A DNA stretch of 33,742 nucleotides from Candidatus Calescibacteriota bacterium (GTDB lineage Bacteria > CAIJMQ01 > JAADFP01): the NCBI GenBank assembly GCA_021162785.1, contig JAGGYA010000009.1, positions 1 through 33,742 of the forward strand, in the 5' to 3' direction. The notes beneath the pieces are model-generated. The model saw only the letters and a program-made list of their open reading frames with translations. It was not told the DNA's origin and ran no database searches. Positions within the stretch are counted from its first letter, which is position 1. Each line of letters opens with the position of its first letter. Positions 1,792 to 22,033 of the stretch are shown piece by piece. The position numbers were made by a program, and so were the translations under genes.

Positions 1792-2535
1792 ATGGGAGAA
1801 AAATATAGGAAAATGAAGGAAATTACTCACAAGGATTATCTGAAATTTATCAAAGATAAAACATCTGTAATAATCGAAGATGTTGAAATAAAACTCCAAA
1901 AGAAGTGGAACATAAAGTCTTATGGTCCTCCAGAGGAGTATACTTCAGAACGCACAACTGTTTGGAGTTTTCCTGACCGCGGGGATTGGGCAACTCATAA
2001 AGGAAATTATAGAGGGAACTGGTCTCCATACATTCCAAGAAATCTTATTTTAAAATATACCCAGAAAGGCGATTGGGTTCTTGATCAGATGATGGGAAGC
2101 GGTACAACCTTGGTTGAAGCAAAACTGCTAGAAAGAAACGCCATCGGTGTGGATATAAATCTCGATGCTGTTATGGTGGCACAAGACCGTTTAAATTTCT
2201 CATATAACTCGCTTTTCTCTGAATACAAAGAGCCAATAATAAAAACATATTGGGGTGATGCGAGAAATCTTGATAAAATTGATGATGAAAGTATCGACCT
2301 TATAGCGACTCATCCACCTTATGCCAGTATAATTTCATATACAAAAAACAAAAAGCTTGGTGATGACCTATCACAGCTACCATTTGAGGAATATTTAAAA
2401 GAAATGCGAAAAGTGGCAGATGAATCATTCAGGGTTTTAAAACCAGGGAAAATTTGTGCAATTTTAATAGGTGATACAAGAAAACACAAGCATTATGTAC
2501 CTATTGCGTTTAGGGTTATAAGGTGGTGCGCATGA
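1792..2535 (+). CDS. DNA methyltransferase (N4-C or N6-A type), C-terminally truncated
   Basis: A 247-aa SAM-dependent DNA amino-methyltransferase. A motif X-like segment (about residues 71-86, [14 protein letters not shown]) comes first, then motif [12 protein letters not shown] (96-106, SAM binding), an acidic DIN after strand 2 (121-123), and the catalytic motif IV THPPY (173-177). In this motif order the target-recognition part should follow motif IV. Here the protein ends soon after, at AFRV then five residues and TGA, so part of the C-terminus is probably missing. The stop overlaps the ATG of the next gene (ATGA). TAGGAGA precedes the ATG. It may be inactive or depend on another specificity part. 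It lies in the same cassette as a DpnII-type nuclease fragment. Confidence 0.8.
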
Positions 2536-3497
2536 AAACACCAAATTATTTCCTTATATCTGTTTCAAATCGTAAAAATCTTGAATTATGTATGAAATAT
2601 GCATTAGCAGGATTTACTAACAGTATAAATGGCTTATGGACATATTTTGATATAGCAGAGGGGGATTATATTTCTTTTCTTTATGGAGCAAGGGTGAGAA
2701 ACCTGTATAAAGTCATTAAAAAAGTAGCTTACAAGAATGCAGAAAATCTTCCACCTTGGCCACCGGTGACTTTTAGGATGTCAGGAAATACCTATTACTT
2801 CCCTTTTAGACTATTCCTAAAACAAGAAAGAGAATTTGATGAACCTATGGTTAGACCAGAATTCTCTTATGTTGCTGAAAATTTACTATTAAGAGGTGGT
2901 TATAGAAAAACACATTTTCAAGCAGATACAATAACTTTTTATAATGTATCTGAAATGGGTAAGCCATTTGATGGTAAAACTGACTCGCTTGACTTAAAGG
3001 CTGAAACTTTTGAGCCTGAAATAACATTCCGACGAGAACTCCAAAATATTCCAGAAATATTTTACTTCAAAGAGCTAATACTTCAGTCACTCCTAAGAAA
3101 AAAGATTCGTGATTTGATATTTAATGAAATCTTAGATCATTTTAATATTGATAATAAACCCGATGAATTTGAAATATTGGGAGAAAAAGCGCTTCCTGAA
3201 GGGTTTGTTGATATATTTATTAAATTAAAACATCCAACAGGTAGGAACAAATATATATTAGTTGAGATTAAAACAGGTAGAGCTCAAAAAAGAGATATAG
3301 TCCAATTAAAAAATTATTTGAGAGAATTTAACGATGAGGCGGCCGGAGGAGTGCTAATTGCCAGAGATTTTCCTAAACATTTGCCAGATGAATCTAAAGT
3401 TTTACCAGTGAAATATAATTTTAGTCAATTGAATGAGGATTCTAAATTTACTTATAAAGAGTTACTCAATCTATTACATTTGGAGGTGATTACATGA
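2532..3497 (+). CDS. EVE/PUA-like domain fused to PD-(D/E)XK nuclease-like domain
   Basis: A 321-aa protein with two parts. Residues 1-100 ([12 protein letters not shown], then a Trp-containing segment, GDYISFLYG at 44-52 and PWPPVTFR at 75-82) resemble EVE/PUA-fold readers that bind modified bases. Residues 170-265 have a PD-(D/E)XK core: VD (D227), then VEIK (E245, K247), and a downstream QLKNYL (Q258). That combination suggests a modification-dependent or modification-sensing nuclease; the domain calls are by eye. The ATG at 2532 follows AGGTGG by five bases and overlaps the methyltransferase stop; an in-frame GTG at 2523 is a less likely start. The gene ends ATGA-coupled to the next small gene. 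Confidence 0.6.
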
Positions 3498-3739
3498 AAA
3501 AACGGTTGTTCCTTTTTCTCACGCCAGATGGGGTTACATATTCCTCGCCCAGAAAAATATATCCTGACGTTGATAACTTTCAAATATTAGGAGATAGTGA
3601 AGGTATTGATGAAGAAGAAGCTTTCGAGTCCTTTCTTCGTGAGAATAAATGGGTCTTAGATACCGATTTTAAAGAAATAATTTGTATAGAGGTGAGGATG
3701 AAAATTTCCCAAGGAAAAAGATTTGTTCTAAAGAGGTAA
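3494..3739 (+). CDS. Small conserved-looking hypothetical protein, 81 aa
   Basis: An 81-residue protein that starts with [12 protein letters not shown] and has an acidic middle with a helix ([14 protein letters not shown]), then a beta-like end ([16 protein letters not shown]). It is too hydrophilic for a membrane protein. I cannot name a family. GGAGGTGAT lies seven bases before the ATG, and the ATG overlaps the stop of the EVE/nuclease gene (ATGA), so the two are translated together. The short beta-helix layout resembles small partner or immunity proteins, but that is only an impression. Confidence 0.6.
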
Positions 3740-4383
3740 TAATAATATTTCTCATAGCAGAAAGAGTTAAAAATGGAAGGATTGATATCTTCGATCCGGA
3801 ACTGGAGCAATTCCTGATCTTTGAATTCAAACGCTCGAAAGTTAATAAAAATACAATCCCTCTCATCATAGAATTTTGCATTAAAACAGGAATTATGGAC
3901 TTATTCCAAGAAGTTAAAGATATACATGATTATCTCGTTGGTGTTGAAGTAGGCATAGACACGAACGCCAGAAAAAATAGAAGTGGAGAGATTTTTGAAA
4001 GGATGTGTCAGAAAAAGATTGAACGATTAATTGGAAAGAATTACAATATTGTAAACAATGATCCAGACTTCTCGTTATATCCCATAATCACAAAAGGAAG
4101 GAGTAAAGGGAAAACACACGATATTGTAATTTACAAGGACAATAAACCCGTCCTCATTGTTGAGTGTAATTTCTATAATGTAACTGGAAGTAAACCTATT
4201 TCAATAGCAGAGAGTTACATCGAAATGTACAGGATAGCAAAACAGCATAGAGTTGAATTTTTATGGGTAACAGACGGTCCCGCATGGCATAAAATGAGAG
4301 AGCCTCTAATTAGAAGCATGAAAGAAATAGACTGGATTCTTAACTTTAGAATGTTAAATCTCATTGGGGGGATCTTAAAATGA
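3682..4383 (+). pseudogene. DpnII-type restriction endonuclease, N-terminally truncated
   Basis: From about residue 20 the protein matches the DpnII/MboI family: FLIAERV, then GVEVGIDTNARKNRSG near the middle, HDIVIYKDNKPVLIVECNFY with the acidic residue and Glu-x-Asn of the active site, GSK, and VEFLWVTDGPAWH near the end. The family is usually close to 290 aa; here about 70-80 N-terminal residues are missing. The only upstream start is TTG at 3682, inside the 81-aa gene, and the first 17 or so residues are just that gene read in another frame. The join at about 3727-3740 therefore looks like a recombination junction. No ATG occurs before the conserved part. The product is probably inactive, unless rescued by frameshifting or a rare start. 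Confidence 0.65.
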
Positions 4384-4951: not shown

Positions 4952-5266
4952 ATGAGAGCAAGTAGGAAGAGATACTGGATTTTAAAGAGTATTGGGGTAG
5001 CCTCCGTTTTCAAAATGTTTGGAGGGACTTTTTTTCAATTTGGACTGATAGTGGGGCTGATCCTTTCACTGCTCTTCCCTGAAGAGCTTTATCTTCCAAT
5101 AATTGGCACAATCCCCTCAGGAATTATTGGTGCGTTCCTTTATGCAGTATTTTGGGGTCTTGCAGTAGGACTTATTGCAGGCCTTCTCGGAGCTATTTAC
5201 AATATTTTTGCTTTGCTCTTTGGTGGTATCGTTTTAGCGGTGGAAGAAAAGGAGATAAGGGAATGA
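4952..5266 (+). CDS. Small inner-membrane protein (DUF3566-like layout)
   Basis: A 104-aa membrane protein. A basic N-terminus (MRASRKRYWILKS) is followed by hydrophobic segments at about residues 18-42 and 60-98, the latter Gly/Ala-rich and long enough for one or two helices, and a charged tail EEKEIRE. The layout resembles DUF3566-type small membrane proteins, but I cannot confirm the family. GGGAGGAGG precedes the ATG by five bases. The stop overlaps the start of the CsgG-family gene (ATGA), so the two are translationally coupled and may work together at the envelope. Confidence 0.75.
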   Translation: MRASRKRYWILKSIGVASVFKMFGGTFFQFGLIVGLILSLLFPEELYLPIIGTIPSGIIGAFLYAVFWGLAVGLIAGLLGAIYNIFALLFGGIVLAVEEKEIRE

Positions 5267-6153
5267 AAAGAATCTTTTTACTCACATTTGTTTTACTTCT
5301 TACCTTCACTTTTTTGGGAGAAGAGCGAATACTTAAAAAAGTAATTGCAGTAATGGAGTTGGAGAATAAAACAGGCTGGAGGGGGAGAGAACTTGGAGAA
5401 GGACTGACTGAGATGCTCATCACTTCCCTTCAGGAGACGGGAAGGTTCATCATTGTGGAAAGAAAAGCATTGAAGGATATACTCCAGGAACAGAAACTGG
5501 GAGAAGAAAAAAGACTCACTCCCCAAACTGCTCCCAAGAGGGGTAGGCTCCTGGGTGCCCAGATACTGGTAAGAGGTGCTATCACCGAATTTGAGCAGAA
5601 AAAGGGTGGAGGTGGGATTGGTTTAATGTACAAAGGTATTGGAATTGGTGGTGGGAAGTTGAGAGCCCATGTAGCATTGGATATTCGCCTTTACGATACC
5701 GCAACAGGTGAAATCATTAGCTCAAAAAGAGCAGAAGCTGAAGCTGTAAGTAAGGGATTGGCAGGAGGAGTGAGTATTGAAGGGATAACCATTGGCGGAG
5801 CAGAATTTGAGAAGACCCCTTTGGGAAAAGCAGCAAGGGAAGCCATAGAGAAAGCAGTGGAATATATCGTTGAGGAAATGGAAAAACAACCCTGGGTGAG
5901 TAGAATAATAAAAGTTAAGGATAATCTGGTTTACATGGTTGGGGGTGAGGATATGGGGATAAAAGAGGGGGATATTTTCTATGTATATTCTCTTGGTGAA
6001 GAACTTATAGATCCAGCCACAGGTCTATCCTTAGGCAGGGAAGAGGAGAAGGTGGGGAAGATCCGGGTGAAAGAAGTAAAGGAAAAGTATTCCAAGGCGG
6101 AGATTATAGAGGGGAAGGGATTTAAATCAGGGGACCTAATCCGGGATCGATAA
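5263..6153 (+). CDS. CsgG/HfaB-family exported protein
   Basis: A 296-aa secreted protein with a signal peptide at residues 1-18 (MKRIFLLTFVLLLTFTFL). There is no lipobox cysteine, unlike E. coli CsgG. The mature part begins with the family's core: VIAVMELENKTG, LGEGLTEMLITSL, GRFIIVERKALKDILQEQKLG, then a Gly-rich stretch and VALDIRLYDTATGEIISS. After the CsgG domain (to about residue 210) comes a 75-residue beta-rich domain (WVSRIIKVKDNLVYMVGG to the end) seen as a C-terminal add-on in many curli-assembly-like proteins of uncultured bacteria. No other curli genes are nearby, so curli secretion itself is not implied. The start at 5263 fits the signal peptide and ATGA overlap. Its 3' end overlaps convergent pabC by 18 bp. 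Confidence 0.8.
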   Translation: MKRIFLLTFVLLLTFTFLGEERILKKVIAVMELENKTGWRGRELGEGLTEMLITSLQETGRFIIVERKALKDILQEQKLGEEKRLTPQTAPKRGRLLGAQILVRGAITEFEQKKGGGGIGLMYKGIGIGGGKLRAHVALDIRLYDTATGEIISSKRAEAEAVSKGLAGGVSIEGITIGGAEFEKTPLGKAAREAIEKAVEYIVEEMEKQPWVSRIIKVKDNLVYMVGGEDMGIKEGDIFYVYSLGEELIDPATGLSLGREEEKVGKIRVKEVKEKYSKAEIIEGKGFKSGDLIRDR

Positions 6154-15091: not shown

Positions 15092-15529
15092 TCAGAAAAG
15101 GAAGTTGTCTCCTTTTATATCCAGAATTCTATATTTACCATTGACCTTCTTCAAAAGAACCTCCGCTTCCCCTTTTGCTTTCTTTACCTTCCCCTTTTTA
15201 TCCTGATACACCTTCCTCCATTTCAACTTCACCGAGTACATATCCTCCTTTTTAAGCACTTGATTTATGGTAAAGTCAACATCCAGAACACTCTCAGGTA
15301 ACTTTTCCCTTTCATATCTGGCAATGGTCTCCTGGATATCTTTCAGGTAGTCCTGAGAAAAATGGGAGAAAACCTTGCTGTAATCCTTGCTTTTCATACC
15401 CTCCTTTAAACTATTCAACTCCTTCCTTATCTCCTCCCTCTCCCCTCTTTCAATATTCCCTCCTGTCTTGCATCCAGAGAGGAGAAGAAGAATTACCAAT
15501 ACACCCGCCAGAATTTTCCCAATTCTCAT
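15092..15529 (-). CDS. Small lipoprotein with NTF2-like domain
   Basis: A 145-aa lipoprotein: a basic start, a hydrophobic stretch and the lipobox LLSGC, so Cys20 would be acylated and the protein membrane-anchored. After a charged linker the rest has the helix-then-curved-sheet pattern of NTF2-like folds: LNSLKEGMKSKDYSKVFSHFS, then strands VDFTINQVLKKEDMYSVKLKW and EVLLKKVNGKYRILDI. No catalytic residues are evident. It is the last gene of a four-gene operon, three bases after the 1150-aa gene, with GGAGATGA before its ATG inside that gene's end. The same fold at the C-terminus of the preceding protein suggests that they interact or arose by duplication. Confidence 0.78.
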   Translation of the reverse strand: MRIGKILAGVLVILLLLSGCKTGGNIERGEREEIRKELNSLKEGMKSKDYSKVFSHFSQDYLKDIQETIARYEREKLPESVLDVDFTINQVLKKEDMYSVKLKWRKVYQDKKGKVKKAKGEAEVLLKKVNGKYRILDIKGDNFLF

Positions 15530-15532
15530 CTT

Positions 15533-18500
15533 TCATCTCCTCCAGAAAGCACCTTCTAAGGTTTTCAAAATTTTAAAACTTCCTCCCTCTTTCCCCACAA
15601 TCTCCACCACCTTGTAAGATTCCCGATGCACCAAGTTCTGAGAGTAAATATAACCCTTTATTTCATTGGTGTAGGTAACCCTGTATCTCCCCTTCCCCTG
15701 GGGTTCAACTTTGAGATTGCTTATCTTGTAATTTATCCTGTCAAACATATCAAAACTCTCAGAAAGCGTCTCCTCTACATCATCCACGGTTGTCCCGTCG
15801 TATGCCTCCCAGTCATCGGAAAGGAGATTTAGCAAAGCTCCCAGATTCTTTGACTCATAATAGTAGGCAAAGGAATGGTAGAGATTTTTGATCTTAAACA
15901 CCGCCCTTTCCGTTTCCGATTTCTCCTTTATTTCCTCAAACAATCTATCTGCCCATCCCTTCAGGTTCACCAGTTCATCCATTAACTTCTCCACCTTTGA
16001 AGAGTTATACTTATTCAGGAAATTCTCCACCTTATCCATAAGATGATCAATTTTCATTATGAACTTCTCAATCATCTCCATGGCCCTATCCAGTGAAAGA
16101 TTCTGAAGAGAACCTTCAAGTTTTCTCTTCTCCTCTTTTAATCCTTTCACAAGCGGGCTGATTCGAGCGATGAGTTCTTCCTCCTTTTCTTCCCTTTCAA
16201 ACTCCTGGAATTTTTCATTTATCTTTTCCCCAATTTTCTTCACCATTTCCTTGATACTCTGGTATAAAGGGTAGGGGAAATCCTCTTTAAAGAGAGGAGT
16301 AATCTTATTTACATAATCTGCCCAGAGATTCCCCAGTCTACTCCGATTTTTGGCTTCATCCACTTTTTTCAGAAAATCCTGAAGATAAGAGAGTTTCTCA
16401 TTTAAAACCTTCTTGAGTTGGGGTGCAAGAGAAGAAAGGAATTTTAATGCCTTCTCTTTAATCTCCTTAAGAAGAGAGCTTTCTGTCTTCAACGCTTTAA
16501 AGTAACTATCCACTTCAAGTATAGACTTCCAGTTATTCTCCAAATTCTTGCTTAAACTTTCCAGCTCCCGGTATTTAGAACCTGCCTCAGCAAGTTTTGA
16601 GAAATACTTCTTTTCTTTAAGATAAATCTTCACCATATCCTTTGTTTCATTCCTCACCTTGTTGATAATCTCATCTAAAACAAAAGGAGGATAGAGAGGT
16701 TGATCATCCAGAGCCAGCCGGTAAGAGAAAAATTCCTCCACCAGACTCTTAGCTTCCCCTTTAAGAACCACATGTCGCTGATAAGCAGTAAGGGAGTTAT
16801 ATCTTCTAACCTTCTCCAGGAAAGATGCTTCCGCTTTAAGAGGCCCCACGATATTTTCTATAGAATCAAGCAGAGAAATGAACTCTTCCATACTCTTTTC
16901 CACCTGGTAAATTTCCCAGTCTTCATGTGTTTTCTTCCACCAGACAATTCGGTCTTTAAGGCTTTCCAGCCGTTTGAGTTTCTCTATATTGGGTTGGAGC
17001 TTTTTAATTCGTGGGAGATTCTTCTTGCACCAGGCATAGAGCTGGGAAGGATAAATACCGTTGTAAAGAGAATAAAGATACCTCTCATTCTCATATAGTC
17101 TTTCCCATTGAGCCCCATAAAGATCCCAGAAACTTGCCATTCCCCTCCTTTCTTCAAGAAAAGAAACAGGTGGCCCCCAGAAATTACCGAACTTCTTTAC
17201 CCAGACAGTTCTAAGCCTTTCCTCGGGAGCATTCCAGATTCTCTGTTCATAAAAAGCCACAGCTTCTTCAATGAATTCAAAGGAAGTGTCCATACTTAGA
17301 ATTCCCACATTACTTTCTAAAACTTTAAGAGCATTTTCTCTCCATTTATCCATCACTAAGGAGAGACTATCCTGCGTTACCTGAATAATATCCTGAATCT
17401 CCAAACACAGATTGTAGGCTTTCTCTGCTATCTCAAATCTTTCACACTCTTCTCCCTCTCCATACTTTTTCTCAAATTTTTTAAGCTCAGCCATCCTCTC
17501 ATTGTATTTCCTTACATAATCCTTAAGAATCTCCTCAATCTTCTCATCCAGCTTCTTGTAATTAAGATCGTAGCTTTCAATAATTTCTTCCTTTTTCTTT
17601 TTCAGTTCTTCCAGATCATCCTCGTGCCTTTCTCGAAAAGCCTTCTTCCATTCTTCCCACTGTTTCCTCCTTGGTTCCGCTATTTGCTCATACTTTTTCT
17701 TTATCTCCTTATATTTTTGAAAATAATCCTCCTCACTTGGTTCCTTCCCCATTTCTCTCATTTTCTCTATATATTCTGAGTAGCTCCCCAGATAAATCTT
17801 CTCCTCTTCTGTAGGATGGGGGGCAATCCCATACTTGGGATAAAACTTCTTAAAAATCTCATCGTAAGCATTCTCGAAAGCCTTAAAAGTAATCCTCCCC
17901 TTCTTTAAATCCTCAAGATTTTTCTCATACTCTCTTATCAGCATCTCCTTGTAAGCTACAGTTTTAGGCCAGGGATCCCTTCCAGCCAGTTCTTCCATTT
18001 CCTTCCGTTTCTCCTCAGCAAGCCTCCTCAGTTCCTCCTCTTCTCTCTTCTTCCTTTCCTCTTCCAGTTTCTTGAGATACTCCTTATATTCCTGGGTGGG
18101 TTCCAGTTCTATGCTAAACTTCTTGTAAACCATTGACATTACCTTATTTGCAAGTGGAATATCCTGAGCATTAAGCTTTACAGATCCAGCCTTAAAAAAC
18201 TTTTTCCTGTAGGGAGTGTAAGCAAATTCGTATTCTTCTCCCTCCCTGAGCCTCTTCACTTTAAAAACCAGCACACTACCTCTTCTTTCCCCTATTTTCT
18301 TCCCATTCTTCTTTATCTCCAGAACCACATCTTCATACTCACCAGTCTCTTTATCCGTAAAAGAAAAAATACATGTTGCATATAGCCGGACATTCATTAT
18401 CCTCCGGGCTCTTTTCCTGAGTCTTTCAAATGCCCTTTTCTGCTTTTCTTCCTTTCTCAAGAAATCAATAAGCGCATTTTCAATTTGTTCTTTACGAGAA

Positions 18501-18985
18501 GCCCAGGTAAAAAAGACATGTGACAGGAACCCCTGATCCTCACCAAGAGCCAAAGTAACATTCTCATATAACGCATCCTTATCCCCGGCAAGAATTTTCT
18601 TCTTCACACCAGGAGGGAGAGATCGGTAAATCTCAATCATCTTCTCAAACACTGCCTGATCAAGTTTTTTCTGATAGTAATTTATGAGGTAATACTCCAG
18701 CTTTCCTGCGGTGAGAATCACACTCGCTTTCCCCAGAATGTCAGATATCTTATCTTCAATCTTACTCTGGGCTGCTATGGCCATTGCTCCATCATAATCT
18801 CCGTTATAAATCGCCACCAGAATATCCTTTATTGTTTTTAAATCACCTATTCCCGGAAGCAAACCAGCCAGATCCTCCATAAACTGTTTTTCCACCTCAG
18901 GAGAAACAAAAAGATCCTGCCCCAAAAGATAGGGTAAGAAAATAAGGAGGAATAAGAAAACAAAAAGGCCTCTTGACTTAATCAT
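15533..18985 (-). CDS. Large exported coiled-coil protein with C-terminal NTF2-like domain
   Basis: A 1150-aa protein with a signal peptide (about residues 1-22, ending LLGQ). An N-terminal helical region leads into a beta-rich segment around residues 195-275 (RLYATCIFSFTDKETGEYEDV). Long, very charged coiled-coil stretches follow, strongest near residues 300-340 (KKLEEERKKREEEEL) and in the 430-520 and 800-1020 regions. The C-terminal 115 residues (KIKNLYHSFAYYYESKNLGALLNLLSDDW onward) look NTF2-like. It is probably periplasmic, perhaps a long spacer or adaptor between membranes. I know no named family. It starts six bases after the stop of the 425-aa gene and is third in the operon. Confidence 0.75.
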   Translation of the reverse strand: MIKSRGLFVFLFLLIFLPYLLGQDLFVSPEVEKQFMEDLAGLLPGIGDLKTIKDILVAIYNGDYDGAMAIAAQSKIEDKISDILGKASVILTAGKLEYYLINYYQKKLDQAVFEKMIEIYRSLPPGVKKKILAGDKDALYENVTLALGEDQGFLSHVFFTWASRKEQIENALIDFLRKEEKQKRAFERLRKRARRIMNVRLYATCIFSFTDKETGEYEDVVLEIKKNGKKIGERRGSVLVFKVKRLREGEEYEFAYTPYRKKFFKAGSVKLNAQDIPLANKVMSMVYKKFSIELEPTQEYKEYLKKLEEERKKREEEELRRLAEEKRKEMEELAGRDPWPKTVAYKEMLIREYEKNLEDLKKGRITFKAFENAYDEIFKKFYPKYGIAPHPTEEEKIYLGSYSEYIEKMREMGKEPSEEDYFQKYKEIKKKYEQIAEPRRKQWEEWKKAFRERHEDDLEELKKKKEEIIESYDLNYKKLDEKIEEILKDYVRKYNERMAELKKFEKKYGEGEECERFEIAEKAYNLCLEIQDIIQVTQDSLSLVMDKWRENALKVLESNVGILSMDTSFEFIEEAVAFYEQRIWNAPEERLRTVWVKKFGNFWGPPVSFLEERRGMASFWDLYGAQWERLYENERYLYSLYNGIYPSQLYAWCKKNLPRIKKLQPNIEKLKRLESLKDRIVWWKKTHEDWEIYQVEKSMEEFISLLDSIENIVGPLKAEASFLEKVRRYNSLTAYQRHVVLKGEAKSLVEEFFSYRLALDDQPLYPPFVLDEIINKVRNETKDMVKIYLKEKKYFSKLAEAGSKYRELESLSKNLENNWKSILEVDSYFKALKTESSLLKEIKEKALKFLSSLAPQLKKVLNEKLSYLQDFLKKVDEAKNRSRLGNLWADYVNKITPLFKEDFPYPLYQSIKEMVKKIGEKINEKFQEFEREEKEEELIARISPLVKGLKEEKRKLEGSLQNLSLDRAMEMIEKFIMKIDHLMDKVENFLNKYNSSKVEKLMDELVNLKGWADRLFEEIKEKSETERAVFKIKNLYHSFAYYYESKNLGALLNLLSDDWEAYDGTTVDDVEETLSESFDMFDRINYKISNLKVEPQGKGRYRVTYTNEIKGYIYSQNLVHRESYKVVEIVGKEGGSFKILKTLEGAFWRR

Positions 18986-18991
18986 CCCACA

Positions 18992-20269
18992 TTAATGAGC
19001 AAACTGGCGAGTGTCACTGATATAGTATTCGATCGTGAGTTCACCGTTAACTGCAAGAATTTTAAACTTCACATACTTCCCATCATCCGTCCAAACACAG
19101 AAACATTCTCCCACAGAGACTGGCCATACCTCAGGTTCATAACCTGACTCAGGTGCCTCTTTAATATCCTCAAGATTCGTATAGGGCACCCTTTGAATAC
19201 CATGAGGTGGCCCACCACCCCAATAGAGAATACCAGGCCAGGCTACATAACTTATATCAATGGAAGGATCCCCTGCTGGATGCTTTGTCTCCGTGGAGAA
19301 ATCAAATCCCTCATCCTCTGCCAGGGTCACCTCAGCATACTCAAACCCCCCACCTTCCATTTCTTCCATCGTATCCTCCACAGTCCCCTCCAGCTCCACC
19401 GTGGTAGCATTCCCTTCCTCATCCACCATAATCACATCATCTCCCACTGCATCCTCATACACCGAAGTAGCTACCTCTCCCGTTTCTGAAACGCCAAAGA
19501 TTAAGGGCGCTGACATCTCCACCAGCTTTATCCCATCCCTTTCCTGAGCAAAAAGCATGCTTGAAGATGAAGAATCCTGTAAGATTTTTCCCGTCTTAAC
19601 ACTGGTCATTCTCCTCTGGAAATCAAAGGCCAGTTCAAACTCCTTCCCTTTTCTTACAACCCTTCTCACATGCGCATTTATACGAATATTGTCAAAGAAA
19701 CGAAAATCCTTCTCCAGCCCATCTTCTAAAGCATTGAGATCCCCGTAGAAATCCTCCGACACATACCGCATAAACTCTGAAAAATTCTCGTTCATATAGG
19801 CTTCCAGCATCTTCCGGAACACTTTTATAACCTCTGCCTTGGTAGCAGAAGGCTTATAAAAAATGGTCATTTCCCACTCCTCAGGATCACTCTTCCTCCC
19901 CGCTGTGTCTACAGCATAAACAAGGAAATGATACTCACGATTTTCTTCAGGTTTAAACTCATAATAAAAACTCCCTTCCTTAACCTTTGCCTCCACCCAG
20001 TTCTCTCCACCATCAAAACTTATCTTAACCTTCCCTATCTCCCCTTTGGAGACTTCCGCTTTCCCCCATATTTTCAAAGCCCCTCCTTCCAGGTCCTCTG
20101 GATTGATAATCAACTCCTCTTCCACATCTTCCGCATTTATTTTTCCCAGATAAAGAGAAGTAATCCTTGGCCCCTCTGCCCTTTTCCCAAACTTCCACCA
20201 CTGAGCATCTATAGAGAAACAAAACATAAGGATGAGTATACTCAATAAAATAAGACTTCTCATCCCCAT
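18992..20269 (-). CDS. Exported Ig/FN3-like plus NTF2-like protein
   Basis: A 425-aa exported protein with a signal peptide (about residues 1-22). Three regions follow: a beta-sandwich domain at about 30-135 with WGKAEVSKGEIGKVKISFDGGENW and YHFLVYAVDTAGRKSDPE, typical of Ig/FN3-like modules; an NTF2-like domain at about 140-265 (VIKVFRKMLEAYMNENFSEFMRYVSEDFYG); and an acidic linker before a C-terminal beta domain that includes GECFCVWTDDGKYVKFKIL. No catalytic motif is seen. GGAGGAG stands five bases before the ATG. It is second in the operon, 12 bp after the outer-membrane barrel gene, which suggests a periplasmic partner of that barrel. Confidence 0.75.
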   Translation of the reverse strand: MGMRSLILLSILILMFCFSIDAQWWKFGKRAEGPRITSLYLGKINAEDVEEELIINPEDLEGGALKIWGKAEVSKGEIGKVKISFDGGENWVEAKVKEGSFYYEFKPEENREYHFLVYAVDTAGRKSDPEEWEMTIFYKPSATKAEVIKVFRKMLEAYMNENFSEFMRYVSEDFYGDLNALEDGLEKDFRFFDNIRINAHVRRVVRKGKEFELAFDFQRRMTSVKTGKILQDSSSSSMLFAQERDGIKLVEMSAPLIFGVSETGEVATSVYEDAVGDDVIMVDEEGNATTVELEGTVEDTMEEMEGGGFEYAEVTLAEDEGFDFSTETKHPAGDPSIDISYVAWPGILYWGGGPPHGIQRVPYTNLEDIKEAPESGYEPEVWPVSVGECFCVWTDDGKYVKFKILAVNGELTIEYYISDTRQFAH

Positions 20270-20281
20270 GATTCTCCTCCT

Positions 20282-21871
20282 TTAAAAACTCTTTTTAAAA
20301 GAAATCTTGAAAAGATTTTCAATATAATCTGAGGAAGACTCACTGAAATGATAGTCATTATGGGAATAATCAAACTTAATCTGGAAATCCTTTATCCTGG
20401 GAGGCACATAAACCACATAGGTATGAACCCTCTTCCGGTCAGAATCAATCCCTCCCGTAGTATCTACCTCTCCAAGTTCCAGATTTAAACCTCCCATCCA
20501 GCACTTCCCATACCGGAAATTAAGTCCTGTCCGATAACTCTGGGTTAAAGTATCCACATCCCCTTTTTCATAGTGCGCATCATCGTAAGAAACTTCAAAG
20601 TAAGGTTTAAGAGTCAACTCTTCCTTAATCCTCCTCCTCGTATTAACCATAAAACTGTAAAAAACCTTATCCGAATCACTTTCTCCCACCCGGTCATTCT
20701 TGAAGAGCCACTCCACCTTACCCCGGAAATTCACCTTCCCAAACCGGTCACTCAACCCCAGCTTAATCCTTTCCGTATACCACTTCACACTCTCATCTCT
20801 TGCCTTAACCTCCCTCAACCTGTAAGCAATGGTAGTGGACTGCCTCTTCCTCTGGAAGAAAAGCCCCTTAACCCGTGTGCCCACCTCCCCCACCTGAGTT
20901 ACCGTGGTAGTTGTCTTTTGATTATCCAGATTATCCCTGTACCACTCATAATTCATATAAAACTTCCACTTCCTTGAAACCCTCCAGTCAAACTTATTTT
21001 TGAACCTCTCCCTGTCCGGGGTGTAAGCTCCTCCCAGGGTCATGAATTCAGGATCCGTCTTCTCAAACTGGAACCTCCAGCTAAGATTTCGGTTAAATCT
21101 CTTATACACCCTCAACTTATTGCTTAACCCCTTCAAAGTATCATCATCCCCATCCAGAACAAACTTCCGGGTATAGGAAGAAGCATGTTCCCCTTCGAGG
21201 TCAAATCCACCCAAAAGCCATTTCCAGTTCAAACTCACCACATTTTGTTTGTAAGCATCCTCAGTTCCCCGGTTATCATCATCTTTATCATCCACAATCT
21301 CAACAAAATTAAGCCCCACTTCATTACTTTCTCTCTTCCACCCCAACCGCAAACCACCCCCTTTCCTCTCCATAGGTTCCCCCTCCACCTCCTTATAAAG
21401 ATACTCCCACTGGGGAGCAAAATAACCTGCAAAAGTTTCTAAGAAAAATCCCCCTTCCTCATCCCACTTGTGGGAATACCCCAATCCCTTAACTGCCCGG
21501 TTTATCGTATACTGGGAGAAATTGGCAAAATAATCACCTACCGTAATCTCATCAAGTTTACTCTTTGCAATGAACTTAAGACTCTCCACTGAAGACTTCT
21601 CCCGGTCTATATTCCGGGAGTCCGTCCACCTCAAAAGAGTGTTGAAATTATAATCCCACGCCGAAGACATCTTCCCCTGACTGAAAATCTCCACTTCCTG
21701 CAGGTAATGGGAGTACTTCTCATAAATACTGTTTTCCTTCCCAGGTCCCTTAATCTCATTGTAATAAAACTCTGTAAGAAGATTCACTCTCACTTCACCT
21801 GCCTGAAGATAATAAGGAAGGAAGAAAAACAAAAAGATGGAGATAAACTTCATTATTCTACTCTTCTCCAT
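20282..21871 (-). CDS. Outer-membrane beta-barrel protein
   Basis: A 529-aa protein with a signal peptide (about residues 1-25, ending LQAG). The mature part is a long series of alternating hydrophobic/polar strands rich in Tyr, Trp and charged turns (SLKFIAKSKLDEITVGDYFANF, FRFQFEKTDP-type strands, SYRTGLNFRYGKCW) and it ends in Phe (FKISFKKSF), the usual signal for outer-membrane insertion. Size suggests about 20 or more strands. It may be a porin-like channel; substrate unknown. GGGAGGG precedes the ATG. It is the first gene of the four-gene operon driven by the promoter at 21939-21967. Confidence 0.82.
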   Translation of the reverse strand: MEKSRIMKFISIFLFFFLPYYLQAGEVRVNLLTEFYYNEIKGPGKENSIYEKYSHYLQEVEIFSQGKMSSAWDYNFNTLLRWTDSRNIDREKSSVESLKFIAKSKLDEITVGDYFANFSQYTINRAVKGLGYSHKWDEEGGFFLETFAGYFAPQWEYLYKEVEGEPMERKGGGLRLGWKRESNEVGLNFVEIVDDKDDDNRGTEDAYKQNVVSLNWKWLLGGFDLEGEHASSYTRKFVLDGDDDTLKGLSNKLRVYKRFNRNLSWRFQFEKTDPEFMTLGGAYTPDRERFKNKFDWRVSRKWKFYMNYEWYRDNLDNQKTTTTVTQVGEVGTRVKGLFFQRKRQSTTIAYRLREVKARDESVKWYTERIKLGLSDRFGKVNFRGKVEWLFKNDRVGESDSDKVFYSFMVNTRRRIKEELTLKPYFEVSYDDAHYEKGDVDTLTQSYRTGLNFRYGKCWMGGLNLELGEVDTTGGIDSDRKRVHTYVVYVPPRIKDFQIKFDYSHNDYHFSESSSDYIENLFKISFKKSF

Positions 21872-21938
21872 CTCAACCCTCCCTTATTTATTTTCTTCAA
21901 CTTTACCCTTAAGACTTAATTGTTATTTATGAAATTTA

Positions 21939-21967
21939 ATTTTAAGCCTTTCCCCCCAGATTTTCAA
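21939..21967 (-). promoter_or_regulatory. sigma70-type promoter of the barrel/NTF2 operon
   Basis: On the minus strand TTGAAA (21962-21967) and TAAAAT (21939-21944) are separated by 17 bp. Transcription should start near 21932, leaving a leader of about 60 nt before the barrel gene. Confidence 0.65.
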
Positions 21968-22033
21968 CTGCACAACCATCCACTTCGGCCTCAAATCATT
22001 CCTCCCCTTACCCCAATCCAGAAAACCCTTATA

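Follow-up and report, generated by a model that had tools for sequence, protein, structure and literature searches.

Results

Three exported partners share an operon with a predicted outer-membrane barrel

The window, by which we mean the whole 33,742-nucleotide stretch analysed here (contig JAGGYA010000009.1 of a Candidatus Calescibacteriota bacterium), carries a head-to-tail run of four genes, called as open reading frames:

20282-21871 (-): gene 1, predicted barrel, 529 aa, exported
18992-20269 (-): gene 2, Ig/NTF2 protein, 425 aa, exported
19445-19855 (-): NTF2-like domain of the Ig protein, approximately aa 139-275 (HMM of relatives only, E 1e-26)
15533-18985 (-): gene 3, long helical/NTF2 protein, 1150 aa, exported
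15536-15925 (-): C-terminal NTF2-like domain of the 1150-aa protein (hhalign against the relatives' NTF2 profile)
15092-15529 (-): gene 4, predicted lipoprotein, 145 aa, NTF2-like throughout its mature part (HMM E 1e-9, AlphaFold, Foldseek)
21939-21967 (-): candidate promoter upstream of the operon, TTGAAA-17-TAAAAT, a consensus match only

The first-pass annotation had set these genes 3-12 bp apart, and all four reading frames lie where it placed them, with gaps of 12, 6 and 3 bp in order from barrel to lipoprotein. RBS-like sequences precede genes 1, 2 and 4 (AGGGAGG, AAAGGAGG and GGAGGAG, respectively); that of gene 3 is poor. The proteins have signal-peptide-like N-termini, and the last gene encodes an LSGC lipobox with its Cys at position 20. 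Genes for a DUF3604 protein and a nucleotidyltransferase, both on the opposite strand, flank the run. The candidate promoter (21967-21939) is a single sigma-70-like match at 10 of 12 positions and the best in the region. Sigma-70-like matches in the region total 13, equal to the expectation from shuffled sequence (12.1), so the "strong promoter" of the first-pass annotation keeps its place as the best regional candidate while its strength is unproven.

Elsewhere in the window are a CsgG-family protein (5152-6153 (+), approximately 9 kb from the operon; PF03783, E 2.7e-44; an outer-membrane secretion lipoprotein family) and a restriction-modification cluster (1792-4383 (+)) comprising an N6_N4 DNA methylase, a possible endonuclease-like protein and a DpnII-family endonuclease.

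The 529-aa protein has the hallmarks of an outer-membrane beta-barrel

The product of gene 1 combines a signal-peptide-like N-terminus, alternating amphipathic strands and a C-terminal Phe, together with a conserved GDxxxxFSxYT...G motif. Its amphipathic alternation yields 25 peaks against 17.5 +/- 2.7 in shuffles, a value reached by 2 of 500 shuffles; two barrel relatives also exceed their shuffles, and the helical 1150-aa protein falls below its own. Within the barrel alignment, two distant members match the barrel domain of the S-layer protein SlpA (SlpA_C, PF21620), one of them (in genome G024) above the curated cut-off; this member also has a sub-threshold match to Porin_4. From the alternation, the C-terminal Phe and these distant Pfam beta-barrel matches, we predict an outer-membrane beta-barrel, in agreement with the first-pass annotation. 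A sequence search found no relative of the barrel in the PDB, and the AlphaFold model built from the single sequence has a pLDDT of 29.5, too low for use.

The likeness to SlpA is confined to those two distant members: the window barrel does not match SlpA_C, and no SlpA-like N-terminal part was recognised. SlpA-type tethers combine SLH, coiled coil and SlpA_C in one chain, and neither SLH nor SlpA_C was matched in the window proteins.

Three partners carry homologous NTF2-like domains

The 425-aa protein consists of an Ig-like domain (Big_6, E 0.0074), an NTF2-like domain and a C-terminal beta-rich domain, and it has matches in 34 of 386 genomes. The 1150-aa protein has a charged body, largely helical by composition, that ends in an NTF2-like domain. 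The lipoprotein has only remote counterparts (pairwise E 6e-5 at best).

For a non-circular test of these domains, we used a profile of 14 relatives from which the window sequences were excluded. It recovers the Ig protein (E 1e-26) and the lipoprotein (E 1e-9), both far from every shuffle, and gives no significant match to the 1150-aa protein. Aligned as a pair with the long protein of the distant genome G372, the 1150-aa protein matches the relatives' NTF2 profile by hhalign (probability 92%, E 7e-7). When the PDB was searched with a profile of the three window domains, de novo NTF2 proteins ranked first, as they did with a four-row profile and with an 18-row profile, which also returned MecA/PBP5-type penicillin-binding proteins and a ketosteroid isomerase. 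The AlphaFold model of the lipoprotein, for which the three window domains served as alignment, has the order H-H-H-E-E-E-E with a pLDDT of about 90 in the NTF2 part, and Foldseek matches it to NTF2, ketosteroid isomerase and CaMKII hub folds (probability 1.00). The cone-like alpha+beta fold of the superfamily, in which three helices precede a curved mixed beta sheet, is thus found in the lipoprotein by model and in the other two by homology. The domains inferred in the first-pass annotation are real: profiles, profile comparison and the lipoprotein model all came out NTF2-like, and all three partners carry homologous copies.

These domains share their fold and weak sequence similarity with the NTF2-like superfamily (SnoaL, DUF4440, MecA N-terminal domain, CaMKII hub). 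Individual members of the set match DUF4440 (7.8e-5), SnoaL_3 (8.8e-5) and Cds6_C (3e-4). Unlike the named families, however, they are tied to an outer-membrane barrel and fall below the Pfam thresholds: none of the four window proteins passes a curated cut-off, and the window NTF2 domains have only sub-threshold matches to SnoaL.

The NTF2 fold commonly has a ligand pocket, which raises the prospect of an uptake system: the barrel, as a porin, would admit a small molecule that the NTF2 domains then bind in the periplasm. The closest solved folds, among them ketosteroid isomerase and designed ligand-binding NTF2 proteins, fit such a role, as do weak matches of barrel relatives to Porin_4. Yet no polar pocket or catalytic residue is invariant across the 18-domain alignment, binding proteins seldom have long Ig, PKD, TPR or helical bodies, and the pair has no conserved transporter gene as a neighbour. 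We consider uptake distinctly improbable.

Two observations concern other parts of the partners. The beta-rich domain of the Ig protein (approximately aa 310-410; 18992-19340 (-)) has no Pfam name and reappears, in the absence of NTF2, in a number of other genomes (loci L051, L052 and L053 are examples). The N-terminus of the 1150-aa protein gave weak matches, which we judged to be chance, to a C-terminal processing protease-like ORF of class relatives, and its N-terminal similarity to the G372 long protein was not convincing.

Barrel and NTF2 recur together, and sometimes fused, in distant phyla

We surveyed 386 wider genomes and seven genomes of the window's phylum. The barrel profile (A3) finds relatives in 17 of the 386. 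In G372, the barrel, the Ig/NTF2 protein and a long NTF2 protein stand in the same order as in the window (barrel E 1.4e-35; Ig/NTF2 E 8.6e-44 and 1.8e-42; C-terminus of the long protein E 3.9e-21); the long protein there has 1957 aa, with PKD/TPR and a C-terminal NTF2 domain. The barrel adjoins an Ig/NTF2 gene in three further genomes (G174, G390, G393) and occurs with NTF2 proteins in G262, G275, G074 (two loci), G215 and G024 (two loci). Several of these are lipoproteins, and those of G074 and G024 adjoin the barrel as in the window. In G035, G317 and G182, a single ORF encodes the barrel and then an NTF2 domain, directly after the last strand.

A count of the places found with the barrel-only profile, seeds left out, gives 19 loci. 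Of these, 10 have an NTF2 domain within approximately 4 kb on the same contig, and one more is cut by a contig end. With approximately 75 NTF2 places spread over the 386 genomes, each a few Mb in size, we estimate that chance would supply approximately 0.01. Several relatives' loci stop at contig ends. No NTF2 neighbour was found beside the weaker barrel matches in G189, G078, G341, G021 and G142. Queries for the phylum of G372, G174, G074 and G024 each gave a separate set of genomes, and the loci therefore span at least five phyla.

The synteny check proposed in the first-pass annotation thus finds conservation across phyla, barrel-NTF2 gene fusions included. As a claim about four genes it holds in part: the barrel/NTF2 core is conserved, and the third gene, long and with a C-terminal NTF2 domain, is shared with G372, but the full set was found nowhere except in the window genome. 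The conserved core is therefore barrel plus NTF2.

NTF2 domains of the window and G372 are closer to their counterparts (32% identity for the Ig protein, 37% for the long protein) than the window's domains are to each other. Because the domains pair off across the two operons, the NTF2 duplication predates the operon split. The copies have travelled or been kept together, patchy though the distribution is. Among the seven genomes of the window's phylum, only the window's own (a MAG, 64% complete) has the barrel; barrel and Ig-protein relatives were otherwise represented there by one NTF2 domain in G006. Further genome-contig and viral-contig scans found no relatives, and plasmid tblastn found none.

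The G006 domain lies in a 2243-aa FN3 protein, away from any barrel. It and a case in G100 would suit a reading in which surface proteins use NTF2 as a generic mobile domain and the operon merely co-regulates envelope proteins that form no direct complex. Such a reading sits poorly with the fusions and with adjacency in several phyla, which came from barrel-only searches, and we give it little credence. At L014 (382-6987 (-)), in a genome of the same family, an FN3-rich surface-like protein of 2201-2243 aa contains this NTF2 type, and no barrel adjoins it.

Discussion

Recurrence of barrel and NTF2 in unrelated phyla, sometimes as one chain, points to a real and undescribed cell-envelope system. 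The first-pass annotation knew of no named system with this set; in keeping with this, neither Pfam nor NCBIfam yielded a family for the barrel, and we found no description of such a system in the open-access literature searched. Gene order, a common NTF2 domain, conserved adjacency and gene fusion can be read directly from the genomes. The barrel structure, physical contact, the periplasmic side, the scaffold or conduit role and the function are inferred.

Both chain ends of outer-membrane barrels are normally on the periplasmic side. For this reason an NTF2 domain after the last strand should be periplasmic, and since lipoproteins encoded beside the barrel fit the same place, NTF2 may serve as a docking module. 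Our favoured reading, which we hold tentatively and at slightly less than an even chance, is an envelope operon built on a conserved two-part core: an outer-membrane barrel, with NTF2-like domains docked at its periplasmic face. In the window genome the barrel would be served by three NTF2 proteins: the lipoprotein as the form held at the membrane, the Ig-containing protein in the periplasm or at the surface, and the 1150-aa helical protein as an arm that could span the periplasm. The four proteins could then make one barrel-centred scaffold or conduit with NTF2 as the common docking module and the Ig, helical, PKD and TPR bodies as variable arms; barrel, spacer and lipoprotein may together form a trans-envelope complex.

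Alternatively, the barrel could export its NTF2 partners to the surface, with NTF2 acting as a targeting or retention signal, similar to the C-terminal domains of type IX secretion or the partner domains of two-partner secretion. Partners in relatives do carry surface-type domains (invasin/Big_1, PKD), a YadA-head protein is encoded next door, and NTF2 is C-terminal in the long proteins of both the window and G372. It is internal in the Ig protein, however, and it is also fused to the barrel and forms small lipoproteins without cargo. No known translocon domain was found, and neither the window barrel nor its relatives have a Pfam match to POTRA or to an Omp85-type barrel of the two-partner secretion or BamA-like kind. 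We regard export as unlikely, if less so than uptake or co-regulation.

The docking reading has partial parallels. LptD-LptE and BAM are outer-membrane barrels with dedicated lipoprotein partners, and the window pair may work in a comparable way; it has no family match to either, and its partner fold is NTF2-like. Periplasmic NTF2-like proteins of the VirB8 type belong to an envelope machine, type IV secretion. The exported NTF2-like fold is the shared feature, and the lipoprotein has a non-significant match to NCBIfam TrsH/TraH (E 0.12); no other type IV secretion gene was recognised among the window proteins scanned.

Taken across genomes, the loci may represent a new barrel family with NTF2 as its dedicated periplasmic docking module, present as lipoproteins, as fusions and within long proteins of Ig, TPR or helical type, and patchily distributed over at least five phyla; we put this, too, just short of evens. 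If true, a pairing of barrel and partner would be established for the outer membranes of poorly known phyla, and proteins that currently lack annotation would gain functions open to test. With barrel and NTF2 fused in one gene, the assignment of partners can be tested directly.

Other genes occur around related loci. A sigma-factor-like gene and a subtilase-like protein lie downstream of one barrel and Ig/NTF2 pair (L103, 3110-6577 (+)), and a subtilase-like ORF lies near another (L102). In several genomes, FecR domains are found in neighbours of the barrel or in NTF2-associated loci, at L094 (2760-5378 (-)), L095 (8436-10910 (+)) and L045 (12837-13766 (-)).
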